The notes beneath the pieces are model-generated. The model saw only the letters and a list, made by a program, of their open reading frames with translations, did not search any database and had not been told where the DNA came from. From Methanomassiliicoccaceae archaeon (GTDB lineage Archaea > Thermoplasmatota > Thermoplasmata > Methanomassiliicoccales > Methanomethylophilaceae), in contig JAEEOP010000032.1 in assembly GCA_016284295.1 (NCBI GenBank), positions 1 to 64,000 on the forward strand: a DNA stretch of 64,000 nucleotides, in the 5' to 3' direction. Numbering within the stretch: the first letter of the stretch is position 1; every line of letters starts with the position of its first letter. The position numbers and the translations under genes are program-made. Shown here in pieces: positions 13,354-46,294 of the stretch.

Positions 13354-14286
13354 ATGGCCTACAGCGTCGAGATCATCGGGTCGGACCGCGCGGAGGAGCT
13401 CCTCTCGCTCCACGGGGGATCCAACTACTACAGGCAGAAAGCGGACATCAACGGCATCTGCATCGAGCTTTTCACGGAGAACAAGGACTTCAGCGACATG
13501 TGGTCCGACAACTTCTACCATATGTCCGACCACGTCCGCTCCCATGGGAGGATCTACTGCATCAACGACGGGTCCGGGCTCCATGCGGAATACGACATGT
13601 CCACGTACACCATGTTCCTGTTCGATTTCGACTACTACGGATGGATCAAGAGCGTCGGGCTGGGGATGGCGGGCAACATCCTTGAGAGGGGCCATTACGT
13701 CTACTCAGTTCACGGCGCGGCGATCGATGTGGACGGCAAGGGGGTGACTCTGATAGCACCCTCCAAGACCGGAAAGACCACACAGTCATGGGGACTCCTC
13801 AGGCTGGAGAACTCCCATCTCATCTCTGACGACTGGTATTTCGTCCAGTTCGGAAACGGAAGGCCCAGGATCACCGGTTCCGAGAGGAACTGCTACATCG
13901 ACGCTGATATCGGAGACGTGTGGGAGGAGTACAAGCCCCTGGTGACCGGCGTCAAATTCGACAACAAGGGCAGAGGAATAGGCAACGTCAGATGGGTGAG
14001 GGGCGACGGTGCCGTCATCCCCAAGACGTCCATGAGCACGGTCATCCTGCTGAAGAGGGATCCCGAGGATCCTGAGCTCTGCAGGGAGATGGCGGTTGAT
14101 GATGCCCTGTCCTATCTGGAATCGCACGATTTCTGCAACCCGCATCAGCTGATCCGCGACGAAGCCAGCATCGCTCTGCGCAGGGAGTTCTTTAGAAGAT
14201 ACCTGTCCGAGTGCAAGGTGTACATGGTCAACACCACATCGCCCGCCAGGGAGACGCAGGAAAGGATCCGCTCCCTCATCGGATGA
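13354..14286 (+). CDS. HPr kinase-like P-loop protein
   Basis: A 310-residue protein. The central motif VTLIAPSKTGKTTQSWGL (about residues 134-151) is a Walker A loop, and LISDDWYFVQ shortly after resembles the D-D strand of HprK/PEPCK-type kinases. The N-terminal 100 residues are unlike bacterial HprK. The likely activity is phosphoryl transfer to a small molecule or protein, but the substrate is unknown; archaea generally lack HPr. Its end overlaps the end of sfsA on the other strand by 11 bases. A T-rich TATA-like element lies about 28 bases before the ATG. Confidence 0.65.
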   Translation: MAYSVEIIGSDRAEELLSLHGGSNYYRQKADINGICIELFTENKDFSDMWSDNFYHMSDHVRSHGRIYCINDGSGLHAEYDMSTYTMFLFDFDYYGWIKSVGLGMAGNILERGHYVYSVHGAAIDVDGKGVTLIAPSKTGKTTQSWGLLRLENSHLISDDWYFVQFGNGRPRITGSERNCYIDADIGDVWEEYKPLVTGVKFDNKGRGIGNVRWVRGDGAVIPKTSMSTVILLKRDPEDPELCREMAVDDALSYLESHDFCNPHQLIRDEASIALRREFFRRYLSECKVYMVNTTSPARETQERIRSLIG

Positions 14287-14983
14287 TCCTCAGACGGCAC
14301 TCCACCGGGGAGCCCACCGTCATGGAATCGGGTGTCACCACGCAGTCGTAGGCGAGGACGCACACCCCATCCTCAAGCACACGGGACAGGGCCTCCCCGA
14401 AAGCGGGATCCGTGGCGTAGTTCGGAACGAAATAGGATACTGGCCTCATCTGTATGATCAGTACGACCTACGATTCGTAACCTTCATCCAAAGCATCCCT
14501 CAGGCCAAGGAGATGCTTGAGTCCCCTTTCCGTTGGGGCGTCCGGGAAGGAGCACACGCCGTCGTTCTCCAATGTCACGCCCTTCACCTCGGCGAAGACC
14601 TTCCTGTCGCCGTCCTCGATGTAGAAGTCGAAGCGGGAGTCGCCATGGACGGTCTCGGGGAAGATGCGGGGGTCCTTGAAGAGGCCGGATATCGGTATAA
14701 ATTCCTTGAAAGCGGCATTGGGGGCCTGGGAATCGATGTTGATGAGCACATCTCCCTTGTAAACTGCGATAAGATCGTAGCGGGTCTTTCTGGATGGGTT
14801 GTCGGAATCATACAGGATGCATCTGGCGCCCGGGACGAGGATCTCCTTGCATCTCCCGGTGTTCTTGACGTGACATCTTACTACAGGGTCTGGCACATCC
14901 CCTTCGCCTTTGATCCGGACGTTGGCGATGAACCTGTTGGGCCTGTCTATGAATGTCCCTTGAATCACACGGTCGTACTTCAT
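14276..14983 (-). CDS. sfsA: SfsA family protein with an in-frame UAG (probable pyrrolysine)
   Basis: The N-terminal part reads YDRVIQGTFIDRPNRFIANV, then HVKNTGRCKEILVPGARC, KVFAEVKGVTLE and FPDAPTERGLKHL, all SfsA landmarks (OB-like domain plus nuclease-like fold). TAG occurs at codon 172 (14470-14468), after DEGYES. The same frame continues for 63 sense codons (VVLIIQM...YFVPNYATDPAFGEAL...GVCVLAYDC) to TGA at 14278-14276. This tail is the expected SfsA C-terminus, and with it the protein reaches the usual length of about 235 residues. UAG is probably read through as pyrrolysine. ATG 14983 is chosen over 14989 because of a GGTGG about 7 bases upstream. SfsA binds nucleic acid; its role is unclear. 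Confidence 0.85.
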
Positions 14984-15047
14984 TTCCATCCACCGATTCG
15001 TTCCGAATCGGAGAGTCGTTGCAGGGATTTTCTTCGTTGAAAAACCC

Positions 15048-15463
15048 TTGACGCTAACATCGGTAAGCATCAAGGTAATGGAGTTTGGGGGTATAATTAG
15101 TTTAACAGTTCGAGGGGTCATCCAAAAAGGGCATCATCCACCGAGTTCGTCGCGGTCTTCAACAGCGATAAGTCTGGTGATAGTCGAATTGATTGTCGCT
15201 TTATGTTCGTTCTTCATTCTTCCTGATACGATTGCAAGGCACTGGGGTGTCGGCGGGACCAGTTATGGCAGTCGATATACGTATTCGGTGCGCCTGTCCT
15301 CGCGGGGATTGTCACCGCAGCGGCCAGCATGTTTTCGAGATGGTACGAGAAGCGTGATCCTGTTGAAGGGGAGACGCTGTATTACGTGATGCTCTTCGTG
15401 TCCTTCATGATGATTTTTGTCGGATTCTTTGGAATATCCCTGATACTTGCGACTAATTTTTGA
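15048..15463 (+). pseudogene. Frameshifted DUF1648-like membrane protein
   Basis: One frame encodes a helix followed by ILPDTIARHWGVGG, the PxxIPxHW-type motif of DUF1648/SdpI-like proteins, and is intact to about 15285. The homologous continuation (VFGAPVLAGIVTAAASMF ... MIFVGFFGISLILATNF, then TGA at 15461-15463) lies in the next frame, starting at about 15284. So one frameshift near 15283-15290 breaks a gene of about 125 codons. The start is uncertain. The remaining DNA to 15691 shows no convincing gene. Confidence 0.55.
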
Positions 15464-40599: not shown

Positions 40600-43494
40600 T
40601 CAATCGGATTCGGCCTTGTCCTCCAGATATCTGCGCACCCTGTCCTCGATATCATCCAGCGGGACGGGCTCAATCCTCTTGCTCTCCTTCATCGAGACGT
40701 AGTCTATGTAGCACTCCGCGTCGCAGCCGAAGTTCTCGCATGCCGCATACTAGTAGACGGACAGCTGGACCCTGTACTCGTCCTCGAACTGATGGGAGAT
40801 GTCGGTCTTCCAGTCGTGTATCTCCACATGATCCTCATAGACGGCTATCATGTCGATGATGCCGTGCAGGGTAGCTTCGGTGTTCTCCAGCGGGAGCCAG
40901 CAGTCTATCTCGGCATAGATGTGGTTCGCATCCGAGATGGAATCCAGGACCTTGCGGATCTCAGGGATCTCCTCGTAGACGTCTTCGACCTCGCGGCCGT
41001 AGCACATGGTCTGGGCGATGCTATGGATCTTTTTCCCGTACTCCATTCCTTTGCCGGATACCTCGTCGGACCCATCAGGTATGGATGATCCGTCGCCGGA
41101 ATCGAAGTCGAGTATCTCATGCACGCCTATCTTCGTGCGCCTCCTCCTGTACGGAGGGATCTCCGGGCTCGGGATGCGATCCTTCTCATTGTCATCGGCC
41201 TCGTATCCCACATCGGGGATGTCCGTGAACGAATCGGCCAGCCCCTCCATGAACGCGGAGGGCTGGTCACCGCAGATGACCGTCTCGTACTGCTTCGCCC
41301 TGGAAAGGGCCACGAACATCAGACGCCTCTCTTCGCTGTAATCGGTCTTCAGAGTGCCCAGGGCCAGGCTGGTCCTCCAATCAGGGCACATCTTGGAGTA
41401 GTCGCCGAACCTACCGACGACGCTCCTGCAGCGGACCCCCAGCGTCCTGTCGAAGAGGAACACGTCCCCGTCGCCCCTGACCCAAGGCATGGAGCCCTTG
41501 TCTATGAAAGGACATATGACGGTGGGGTACTCCAGTCCTTTGGACTTGTGCATGGTCATTATGGTAACGGCCTCGTCGTCGATGAAGTTCTCCACGGGGT
41601 ATGTGGCCTCGTTCTCTATGTCGTCCTCTATCAGCGTGATGACGTCCGAGATAGTCAGCAACGATCCTCTGTGCATCGAAGATATGGTCGATATGATCGC
41701 CTGCGTGATGTCGTTGTCCAGTCCGTAGAAGCGGAACATCTTCGTCAGGAGGTCTGTGACCCTGCGCTTCTTCCTGAATAGGAACTCCCTCTGGTCGCGG
41801 AGCAAGGCAGGGACATGGGTCGGGTCCTCCGCCGCATCCAGCACCTGCATGGGGTTGTACTGCATGTCCACCATGATCGGCATGTACCCCCAGCGGTCCT
41901 CCGAGTTGTTCACATATCTGAGCCAGGCCAGGGCCAGCTTGCCCTCGCGGGTGGACATGATCTCGACCTCTCCCTGGAGATATGCAGGAATACCTTCCTT
42001 CTTGCAGGCATCCTTTATCAGCCTGCACTGGGCGGTCTTGCGGCAGAATACCGCTATGTCCCCGAAGCCCAGCAGACGGGATTCTCCGTTCCTGACGACA
42101 TGGTACCTCCCTGACCTTACGTAGTCCTTGATGGCGGCCACCGTGGCGGCGACCTCCCCCTCACTAGAGTCGGCCTGCACGAACCTGACCTCGGAATCGT
42201 CATCGTTCAGATCGCTCCTGCCCTGGTTCAGTAGGACCACGTTCTCCTTCACCTCCTCCTATCTGGGGTTGTCATCCTTGGATCCGTTGAGGCACATGGC
42301 CCTGAAGGCGGTGTCGATCACCTTGCGTGACGAACGGTAGTTGATGTTCAGACGCGGAGTGTCCACCTCGGGTATGCTGTACCCTATGCGCTTGATGTCA
42401 TCGTTGAGGAAGCGCCTGTATTCGACGAGCTTCCGTTCGAAATCGGTGATGTTCTCGATGGAGACGTGCCTGAAACCATAGATCCCCTGCTTCCAGTCAC
42501 CGAGCACGGCCAGATTGGGCTCCTTGAGGATCATCATCGCGATCATCATCTGGTTGGCGTTGGTGTCCTGGAATTCGTCTATCATGACATACCTGAACGA
42601 GTTCCTCTCCCTGACGGAGGGCTTGCTGTAGAGGACGACGAAGGCCAGCATGGCGTTCAGTCCGAACGTGAGGCGGTTGTCCCTGATGCTGGTACGGATG
42701 TACTCGTAGTAGACGTCATGGATGAAATCGAAGAGGCCCTGCCTGTCTGGCGACGCCGCCTCCAGGAGCACCTCGTCGGGGAAGCTGCCGTCCAGATCAG
42801 GTTCCGGGAAATCGTAACGATCTGTCTTGATATCGTTCAGTCTCGATACGTTAGGGGACGCACCCCTGGACCTTGGGATGTTCCTTTCTTTCAGCTGCTC
42901 GAGGACCGCTTCGCAGTCGCCTTCCAACATCCTCTTCCAGTCGTTCCCGAACCATCCTTTCCTCAGAGGTATCAGCCCTTTGGACATCAGGTTCTGGATT
43001 AGCTTCATAATGGTCAGGGGCCTCTCGCTGGCGATGACGGCGTAATCGCCGTAGTCCGAACCCTTCCTCAGGAGGAAGCCGTCCATGAAGCGGATGAAGT
43101 AGTTCCTGTTCATGGCCCCGTTCTGGCTGAGGACAGCGGATCTCGTGAGTGATTCGTCGAATCTGAAGAACTCCCCTATCATATCGGGAGAGTCCAGGAC
43201 GATGGACAGGCAGAAGGCGTCGAACGTCATCGTGCGCACGAGCTTGGAATCCCTCTCCATGCCCTTCTCGACCATCTTGTTCCTGATGCGCTCGTCCATC
43301 TCAGCGGCGGCGTTGTTCGTGAATGTGAGGAGCATGATGTCGCTGGGCGACACGTTGCGCTCGGTAAGGATGTTCATGTAACGGGCGACGATCGTGTGCG
43401 TCTTTCCGGTACCCGGGCCGGCATCGACTACCATCATGCCGTCCAGGGTGTCGGCTATGTGCTGCTGGATCTCGTTGAGCTCACTCATCGTCAT
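40600..43494 (-). CDS. AddA-like UvrD helicase-nuclease with two in-frame UAG codons
   Basis: One frame runs from 43494 to TGA 40602-40600 (964 codons before the stop), interrupted only by TAG at codon 412 (42261-42259) and codon 915 (40752-40750). Before the first: DAGPGTGKTHTI (motif I), VMIDEFQDTNANQ (II), LGDWKQGIYGFR (III) and NYRSSRKVID (IV). After it: TIMTMHKSKGLEYPTVI (V), RLMFVALSRAKQ (VI) and the nuclease motif EIHDWKTD. After the second: 49 residues ending RRYLEDKAESD. Neither half makes a complete SF1 helicase, so UAG is probably decoded, most likely as pyrrolysine. Residue 915 sits at the usual QLSVY-x-YA position. It overlaps the AddB-like gene by 14 bases. The start could be 43488. 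Confidence 0.88.
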
Positions 43495-46153
43495 CGACCT
43501 CCTCCGCCTCCAGATGGACGCTGTCCTCGGTGCATACCGGGTAGAACGGGCATTCGGAGCATCTGGCCTCCGGGTTGACAGGGAAGGACGTCCTGCTCCG
43601 CTCCATCATCTCCTTGTGCTTGGATGCCACCATGCCCATGACCTCCTCATAGGTCTTCAGCGGTATGACGACGGTGTCTCCGATGATCACCATGTCCGCC
43701 TTGATGCGGGATGCCACCTTCCTGACGGCCTTCTCAGCATCGCCCCTGTTGGTCTTGTTGTCGTTTAGGCCGGTCACGTCGAGTATGTTGGTGATCAGCG
43801 CATGGTCCTTGTCCCAATCGGCCGGATCGTCGGAGCCCATCTCCGATATGATGCCAAGGATGGCATCGGCGAAGGGTCTGAACTTCTTGCTGAGCCCTTT
43901 GCCGCCCTCTCTGGAGAGGTCCCTGGCCATATCCTCGCCGCAGACGATGTCCTTGATGCTTCCGCGTATGAGCTTGACGGTCCTGGTGTTCCTGTCGATG
44001 TCGAAGTCCTTGTCCGAGGATTCGATGTCGTTGTCCATCGCATAGAACAGTCTGAACTCGTCCCCGGGGACGTCCAGGGTCTGGAGCAGGGCCAGGTAGA
44101 TGACAGGTTGGAACTCCGGCCTGCGGGTATCGACGGTCAGGCCTTGGGCGATATTCGATGCCGATTTAGGCTTCGATGTCTTGTAATCGGTGATTATCCC
44201 GTTCCATAGCAGGTCCGCGATGCCGTATATCGGATAGTCCTTCGATATCAGACGGCTCTCGCACATCGAGCTGGTCATCTCCTTTCCCATGGACACCATG
44301 AAGATATTGGGGTGCTTCTTATCGGCCAGCGGGATGTTCAGCGGCGCCGCGGGCAGGCCGAGGGTATCGATGTACCTGACCAGGGAAGTCATCGCTTTGC
44401 GGATCTTGTCGTTGTCCAGCTCCTCCATCATCGGTGACGACAGTCCCGAGTAACGTTCGCCGATCAGGGTTATGAAGTGGTCTATGCCGAGGTCCTGTAC
44501 ATCCTGCGGATAGCAGACGTAGTATTCGGCGAATGCATGGATCAGGTTACCGAACTCGGTGTACTTCTCCTCGGGTGTCTTGAGGCCCTGACCGAAAAGG
44601 AAGCGACGAGGGCATGCGAAGTAGTTGTTGAACGATGATTTCGTGAAGTTCTCATGAATGCAGTCATCGGCCACGGGAACCATCTCCGGGTCGGAAGGCA
44701 TGCTCCCGTCCGAATCCTCGTGCCATCTGCCGCGTACGAAGTTGTCGCACATGTCGGAGAAGCTGCCCATCGGTCTGCCGTACACCAGGTCGAACAGGAG
44801 GCTGGGCCTGGCAGGTTTCCCTCCCTTGGTGGAATTGACGAAATAGTACCTGGCGGAGCCCTGCTGGATCAGGGCCGTGAGCTTCTGGACGTTGTTGTTC
44901 GTCTCCTCCTCGGCATCCAGATACCTCTTCCCGACCACCGGCCTGTTCCAATCCTGCTCCATGCCCAGATAGAGTACGACCGGCCTGTCGATGTAGACGG
45001 AATTGTTGCAGTCCACGAGCAGCACCCCTTTCTTCTCCTCGTCAGGGATCTGTTCGCTGTGCTTCAGCTCGTTGACGTTGTCGACCGCGTATACGATTTC
45101 GTTGAGGATGCTCTCCTTGATCCTGGTGCCGAACACCTTCAGCTCGTTCAGCATCATGGAGACTTGGATCCTGGATTTGGAGTCGCAGATGGCCTCGCAT
45201 ACCTCTCCGAAGGTACGGTCGCGGATGTCCCTCATCGTCTCCCACAGCAGAGGCCCCTTGCCCTTGAGCTCCCCGGGATCCTGCTTGCTGAGAAGGAATC
45301 CATCCTGGCCGACAGGGAAGAAGCCCTGGTAGTTGGAGAACAGTTCCTTGACGTTCCTGACCCTGATGGTCTCGAAGTCCATCGCCAATGATATGAACTG
45401 GAGGTAGTCCCTTATCTGAGAAAGGTCCCTCACGTTGAGGGAGTTGATGAACGGGATGTTCCTTCTGTAAAGGGCGGTCCTGACCGCATCCGCTATAGGG
45501 CTGGCGGTGTTGAGGACTATCGCCACATCGGAGGGGTTGTCCCTGTCGATCATGTCGACGGCGTTGTCGGCGATCTGGCGGTCGTTCCCCAGCTCGTAGA
45601 TGGTATCGATGCTGTAGTCCGCGTTCTTGAAGATGGATATCGGAGTGTGGTCTATCGGGATGAAATGCTTGTCGAGGTCGTTGAAGAGCTCCTCGGCGAT
45701 GACCGCCACGGGGATATCCGAGTACAGTTCGTTCCCGTTCTCCTCGGGGATGAAATCCCCCATGATCTTGTCCAGCGTCGGAAGCTCCCTGTAGGATTCG
45801 TATATCCTTTTGGCCCTGTTGCCGTGGAGGTTCGACTCGACATCCATGGTGTACTTGCGTATCTCCTTGATGTTCTCGACCTCGCTGTGGACGTACTTGA
45901 GGCCTAGTCCGGTCATGTCGGATACGGCAGAGATGACCTCCAGTTCGGTCAGGAACGGCTTGCCGAGGATCCTGGATCCCAGATAGGACGCTATCTGCTT
46001 CGGGGTGACGGCGAAATGGCCGACGATGGCCCTATCGAGCCTTGCGTTAAGGGCGGTGGCCAGAGCCGCATCTGTGGTGATGACCAGACCGTATTCGGAT
46101 ACCTCTTCGTAGAGCTCGTCGATGCTCTTCGCGCACTTCATCGGGACAGGCAT
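43481..46153 (-). CDS. AddB-like helicase-nuclease subunit with 4Fe-4S cysteines
   Basis: A protein of about 890 residues with the AddB plan: a helicase-like N-terminal half without a clear Walker A motif, then NYFACPRRFLFGQGL where the Cys is the first cluster ligand, a PD-(D/E)xK nuclease motif (ADLLWNGIITDYKTSKP), and a C-terminal CSECPFYPVC with the remaining cluster ligands. With the overlapping AddA-like gene it should resect double-strand ends. Several ATGs are possible (46195, 46153, 46141); a TATA-like TTATTACC near 46170 favours a short or leaderless message from 46153 or 46141. Confidence 0.82.
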   Translation of the reverse strand: MPVPMKCAKSIDELYEEVSEYGLVITTDAALATALNARLDRAIVGHFAVTPKQIASYLGSRILGKPFLTELEVISAVSDMTGLGLKYVHSEVENIKEIRKYTMDVESNLHGNRAKRIYESYRELPTLDKIMGDFIPEENGNELYSDIPVAVIAEELFNDLDKHFIPIDHTPISIFKNADYSIDTIYELGNDRQIADNAVDMIDRDNPSDVAIVLNTASPIADAVRTALYRRNIPFINSLNVRDLSQIRDYLQFISLAMDFETIRVRNVKELFSNYQGFFPVGQDGFLLSKQDPGELKGKGPLLWETMRDIRDRTFGEVCEAICDSKSRIQVSMMLNELKVFGTRIKESILNEIVYAVDNVNELKHSEQIPDEEKKGVLLVDCNNSVYIDRPVVLYLGMEQDWNRPVVGKRYLDAEEETNNNVQKLTALIQQGSARYYFVNSTKGGKPARPSLLFDLVYGRPMGSFSDMCDNFVRGRWHEDSDGSMPSDPEMVPVADDCIHENFTKSSFNNYFACPRRFLFGQGLKTPEEKYTEFGNLIHAFAEYYVCYPQDVQDLGIDHFITLIGERYSGLSSPMMEELDNDKIRKAMTSLVRYIDTLGLPAAPLNIPLADKKHPNIFMVSMGKEMTSSMCESRLISKDYPIYGIADLLWNGIITDYKTSKPKSASNIAQGLTVDTRRPEFQPVIYLALLQTLDVPGDEFRLFYAMDNDIESSDKDFDIDRNTRTVKLIRGSIKDIVCGEDMARDLSREGGKGLSKKFRPFADAILGIISEMGSDDPADWDKDHALITNILDVTGLNDNKTNRGDAEKAVRKVASRIKADMVIIGDTVVIPLKTYEEVMGMVASKHKEMMERSRTSFPVNPEARCSECPFYPVCTEDSVHLEAEEVDDDE

Positions 46154-46294
46154 CGTCTGTAGGGTAATAAGCACCTCGGTCGGATGCAACAACATGTCCT
46201 GTTACCGTAACAGTCAAGCATCCATACCGGACCGTTCTGGACATCCTGGCGTAGCGTTCGCGGGTTTTTATCGTAGATCCGGTATCATTCCCGC

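Follow-up and report, generated by a model that had tools for sequence, protein, structure and literature searches.

Two in-frame UAG codons, probably read as pyrrolysine, in the AddA-like helicase-nuclease gene of a Methanomassiliicoccaceae archaeon

The addA-like gene of a Methanomassiliicoccaceae archaeon, a gut-type methanogen, contains two in-frame TAG codons, both of which are very probably decoded by tRNA-Pyl as pyrrolysine. The insertion of pyrrolysine at UAG412 and UAG915 would yield one complete AddA chain of 964 residues, and UAG would act as a rare extra sense codon instead of a DNA-repair-specific signal. The gene lies in a stretch of 64,000 nucleotides (below, the window; positions 1 to 64,000 of contig JAEEOP010000032.1) from genome G000, a draft of 1.86 Mb in 45 contigs that is 95% complete. 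The first-pass annotation had described, on a strand left unstated, a frame of about 964 codons at 40600-43494 that ends in TGA and has TAG as codons 412 and 915. Translation of the minus strand gives exactly this frame, 964 codons long, and the plus strand of the same region is not a single open frame. The gene (40603..43494, minus strand) starts with the ATG at 43494, followed by a second ATG two codons further and preceded by GGAGGAGGT. The adjacent stop codon TGA is at 40600-40602.

The two TAG codons divide the protein as had been described. The 411 codons before the first TAG (42262..43494, minus strand) encode helicase motifs I-IV, that is, GPGTGKT (residues 26-32), DEFQDT (306-311), GDWKQ (332-336) and NYRSS (385-389). 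The segment between the TAG codons (40753..42258, minus strand) contains motif V, TMHKSKGLE, motif VI, VALSRAK, and the nuclease motifs up to DWKTD (894-898) and QLSVY (910-914), the latter immediately 5' of the second TAG. The final 49 codons (40603..40749, minus strand) cover the end of the nuclease fold, from midway through a helix to the last helix, with two strands between them. At the level of domains, the read-through product contains an SF1 UvrD-type helicase with motifs I-VI (Pfam UvrD-helicase, PF00580, and UvrD_C, PF13361) and a C-terminal RecB-type PD-(D/E)XK nuclease (PDDEXK_1, PF12705). The best Foldseek match of the read-through model (mean pLDDT 72.5) is AddA, 4cei, with E-value 7e-36. 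The protein scores below the NCBIfam cut-offs for bacterial AddA equivalogs (135.8 vs 707.65 bits for TIGR02785, 107.6 vs 860.75 bits for TIGR02784), and it is therefore named AddA-like.

The next gene upstream is addB-like (43481..46195, minus strand), and its end overlaps the start of the addA-like gene. It encodes a TAG-free protein of 904 amino acids with a PD-(D/E)XK nuclease domain (PF12705) and candidate Fe-S cysteines in FACPRR and CSECPFYPVC (CX2CX5C). The arrangement is similar to that of AddAB of B. subtilis, whose AddA (4cei, 4cej, 3u44) also combines a UvrD-type helicase with a PD-(D/E)XK nuclease and is encoded beside addB. On the other hand, the archaeal protein is approximately 270 residues shorter, has 16% identity to B. 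subtilis AddA in the structural alignment, and is encoded with two UAG codons. The addA-like product is best explained as the predicted helicase-nuclease subunit of an AddAB-type DNA-end-processing enzyme.

The genome encodes the complete pyrrolysine system, the search for which had been proposed as the first check. A tRNA-Pyl with the CUA anticodon (CTA in the DNA) was found by ARAGORN, and pylT is followed by consecutive genes for PylS, PylB, PylC and PylD, each scoring above its NCBIfam cut-off. Directly upstream of pylTSBCD there is mtmB, encoding monomethylamine methyltransferase; this textbook pyrrolysine protein was used as a positive control, and its gene has an in-frame TAG of its own. 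Pyrrolysine, as suggested in the first-pass annotation, is by far the best reading of the two UAG codons given the pylTSBCD genes, the sense codons of uninterrupted homologues, and the TAG412 of relatives. The identity of the inserted residue would follow from pylT and pylS. One could assume instead that a near-cognate tRNA or a suppressor other than tRNA-Pyl decodes UAG with a standard amino acid. This is extremely improbable, as the pylTSBCD set is complete and all genomes of the clade with TAG have PylS.

AddA-like matches were found in 100 of the 102 genomes of the family; those in G067, G070 and G079 are weak or fragmentary only. In most of the approximately 100 genomes the homologues align along the whole length and span both TAG sites with sense codons, and nearly all strong matches lack internal stops. 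The alignment across both sites and the TAG412 of three further genomes show that the long frame is not fortuitous. A search reported an internal TGA in the match to the AddA homologue of G009 (L031). Among the AddA-like genes of the family, TAG is limited to those of G000, ISO4-G1 (G050), G054 and G055, all of which have PylS, and to a second, distant gene of ISO4-G1. The latter (L038, 714632-720550) has TAG at codons 689 and 763 and groups weakly with the homologue from G065.

The first TAG (42259..42261, minus strand) occupies the same column in all four genomes, which belong to one genus, in the alignment of 49 sequences. In the tree, with paired support values, G000 groups with ISO4-G1 (98/88), G054 and G055 group with G064 (100/97), and all five genomes form one clade (98/95). 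G064, the fifth member, has GTG (Val) in this column, and close neighbours not belonging to the clade encode Glu there, as GAG or GAA, the former being one base from TAG. The lineages are divergent: G000 and ISO4-G1 lie approximately 1 amino-acid substitution per site apart, with terminal branches of 0.55 and 0.51, and identity at fourfold sites among the TAG lineages in two long segments is 0.36-0.53, and thus the sharing of TAG412 is not due to recent copying. From the alignment and the tree, one gain and one loss seem more likely than two gains, both of which would have had to hit the same one of some 960 available codons. The TAG would then have arisen once, in the ancestor of the five genomes and perhaps from the Glu codon GAG, and later would have been lost once.

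Codon 412 is situated at the edge of a loop (404-412) that is modelled with low confidence, is very variable in sequence and lies between conserved helicase blocks. Judging by the model, this site should readily tolerate a bulky residue. Over the whole gene, the three TAG lineages all agree in approximately 50% of residues and 21% of codons; in the loop around 412, the 35 positions include 11 with the same residue and 4 with the same codon. A special conservation of TAG412 was considered and dropped: its retention in three lineages does not exceed that of an average residue, although it exceeds that of a free codon. A freely changing codon at this position would probably have been lost, and retention at about the level of an average residue means that a special role need not be assumed. 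It is conceivable, if unlikely, that pyrrolysine at 412 has been kept by selection, either for a function in the loop or because full-length AddA, and with it break repair, would need a supply of Pyl-tRNA and so be tied to the methylamine-linked pyl system.

As an alternative to read-through at codon 412, the first-pass annotation had mentioned internal reinitiation behind a Shine-Dalgarno-like sequence. This sequence, GGAGGAGGTGA, is indeed present (42249..42259, minus strand). It overlaps the first TAG by a single base, the third of the codon, and its 8-base part GGAGGTGA is placed 8 nt before an in-frame GTG, the latter seven codons after the TAG. Ribosomes would thus terminate at UAG412 and begin again at the GTG, and two chains would assemble into a split AddA. 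The break would fall between two conserved blocks, in the low-confidence loop, and the addA start itself has an upstream GGAGGAGGT. However, the combination of the Shine-Dalgarno sequence and GTG is confined to G000. The nearest in-frame start (ATG, GTG or TTG) is 62 codons past TAG412 in G054 and G055, and the nearest in-frame start in ISO4-G1 is 23 codons past it, in each case lacking a good Shine-Dalgarno sequence. In 471 kb of G000, GGAGGTGA occurs nine times within genes and never before a predicted start, which is a weak argument, as the starts are those of the longest ORFs. Moreover, a split at 412 leaves TAG915 unaccounted for, and the pyl system is present in the genome. Reinitiation was therefore rejected as a conserved mechanism of the TAG412 genomes, and a split AddA is quite unlikely in G000 itself, where some reinitiation might still occur given the good Shine-Dalgarno sequence and the GTG. 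In the case of pyrrolysine insertion, the motifs V and VI would be retained, whereas termination at 412 would leave a protein lacking both.

The second TAG (40750..40752, minus strand), also a predicted pyrrolysine codon, is private to G000. The corresponding column, whose alignment in related species had been recommended together with that of codon 412, contains Ala in 46 of 48 homologues and Gly in the other 2, with no TAG in the relatives. Codon 915 falls within a confidently modelled helix (904-922), just after QLSVY. A stop here would, according to the model, cut this helix in half and deprive the nuclease fold of two strands and its last helix, whereas read-through would replace a near-invariant small residue of the nuclease helix by a bulky one. 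This is the riskier of the two pyrrolysine sites, and the TAG would have appeared later than TAG412, in this lineage alone, at a nuclease-domain helix position occupied by a small residue. One possibility is that only TAG412 is genuine, and that TAG915 comes from a mistake in sequencing or assembly, or from a minor strain, in the draft of 45 contigs. Indeed, it is known from one genome, and at least two changes are needed to convert the Ala codon GCN into TAG. On the other hand, an error would have to affect two or three bases of the same codon and leave the frame intact, and the same pattern is seen in other TAG codons private to G000, namely those in the genes for SbcD (codon 123), citrate synthase, a TPR protein (codon 216) and SfsA (codon 218). 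This explanation is thus unlikely.

The two in-frame TAG codons, one of them in place of a near-invariant Ala, are also what could be expected of a pseudogene decaying after two nonsense mutations. However, the frame contains no frameshifts and no internal TAA or TGA codons, TAG412 is common to a deep clade, relaxed change is not seen in any segment, addB is intact, and a second copy of AddA was not found in G000. Amino-acid identity between G000 and its relatives is 59-65% before codon 412, 53-61% between the TAG codons and 32-44% after codon 915; the respective values for ISO4-G1 are 59-64%, 55-64% and 38-53%. Hence there seems to be no clear decay after either TAG, although the comparison of the tails has little power, as it is based on 49 codons. 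This agrees with the initial impression of coding character on both sides of each TAG, as do homologues aligning across them. The relatives also lack separate genes starting after the TAG codons. The shared TAG and the conserved segments largely refute decay, making a pseudogene very improbable.

If UAG is a rare sense codon, TAG is expected in unrelated genes and at places differing between species, and this is what was observed in stretches of G000 sampled to a total of 471 kb, about a quarter of the genome. Of the 386 coding ORFs, 340 end with TGA, 31 with TAA and 15 with TAG. A strong coding extension follows 6 of the 15 TAG ORFs (two of the six being pieces of AddA) and 24 of the 371 TGA or TAA ORFs, and in the latter group the extension may be merely a neighbouring gene in the same frame. 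TAG codons flagged by the codon score alone include many antisense frames and were left out of the counts. According to Pfam, the genes continuing past TAG include those for MtmB, citrate synthase, a NifH-NifD-like fusion and the TPR protein; the extension of SfsA is weaker. The best reading of these data is that UAG may be a rare sense codon, appearing and drifting in genes and tolerated at many sites of the proteome. The probable use of UAG as a sense codon across many genes of G000 resembles the genome-wide "Pyl code" of archaea reportedly described by Kivenson et al. (Science, 2025), in which UAG is said to be a regular sense codon in many genes.

Several of these genes provide candidates of their own. 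The SfsA-like gene (window positions 14279-15121, minus strand; PF03749 and PF17746) has its in-frame TAG within the domain, as codon 218, and is a candidate pyrrolysine gene. Both citrate synthases of G000 contain TAG (one of them at C36:23363-24709, minus strand; L188), and TAG occurs at differing columns across genomes (L181-L187), one column being TAG in G057, G061, G062 and G068. In-frame TAG was also found in the NifH-NifD-like fusion and in a neighbouring gene (C7:50111 and C7:48510, minus strand). In ISO4-H5, too, a predicted nitrogenase gene was reported to contain an amber codon (PMC5011839).

NurA was found in just 2 of the 102 genomes of the family, whereas AddA-like proteins are nearly universal, and thus AddAB is probably a main DNA-end-processing enzyme in this family. 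The scarcity of NurA suggests that AddAB has taken over end resection. AddA as the sole end-resection enzyme was considered and rejected, as an SbcD-like protein and an ATPase of 703 amino acids are encoded consecutively on contig C36, both TAG-free. A search with a Rad50 zinc-hook model was uninformative, as the model misses Haloferax and Methanosarcina as well. In G000, codon 123 of an SbcD/Mre11-type nuclease gene (L158; C21:28722-29453 and on) is an in-frame TAG as well; across 17 further genomes of the genus, the SbcD homologues are free of TAG. The link between DNA repair and methylamine metabolism proposed initially is overstated. AddA would depend on pyrrolysine if the read-through is right, and in that case, provided that AddAB matters, so would the repair of DNA breaks; but TAG is scattered over unrelated genes, the data do not support regulation, and the TAG-free nuclease-ATPase pair is encoded in the same genome. 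Regulation of AddA by methylamines is speculation. What would follow from read-through is that full-length AddA needs pyrrolysine despite being unrelated to methylamines, and that loss of the pyl genes would harm DNA-end repair too. This would help to explain how pyrrolysine can become difficult to give up after UAG has come into use throughout a genome. Standard annotation would break the addA-like gene into pieces and miss the enzyme.

Predicted pyrrolysine proteins of Methanomassiliicoccales include 16 proteins other than methyltransferases in 'Ca. Methanomethylophilus alvus', where TAG is the stop codon of 1.6% of genes (PMC4153887), 25 proteins in all in the complete genome of ISO4-G1 (PMC4824259) and the products of 46 genes with in-frame amber codons in ISO4-H5 (PMC5011839). 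AddA is best read as an extension of these predictions, 16 to 46 such genes per genome, that adds a DNA-repair enzyme to the list. It is a real and well-supported further example of a known phenomenon. Common features are pylTSBCD, the scarcity of TAG stops and in-frame TAG in ordinary genes, including those for Cas1, Cas3 and a prophage-type helicase. The four-genome TAG column, the most useful part of the present analysis, and the test of reinitiation are new compared to the published predictions. An appearance of pyrrolysine that would be neutral was described for tRNA-His guanylyltransferase (Heinemann et al. 2009, as cited in PMC4153887). As far as that citation goes, AddA is similar in being a housekeeping enzyme whose gene gained TAG with no evident need, and differs in that its TAG412 was inherited across several divergent species. 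The texts of PMC4153887, PMC4824259 and PMC5011839 do not name an AddA/RecB-type nuclease. The AddA of ISO4-G1 may be among the 25 proteins predicted for that genome, which PMC4824259 does not list individually.
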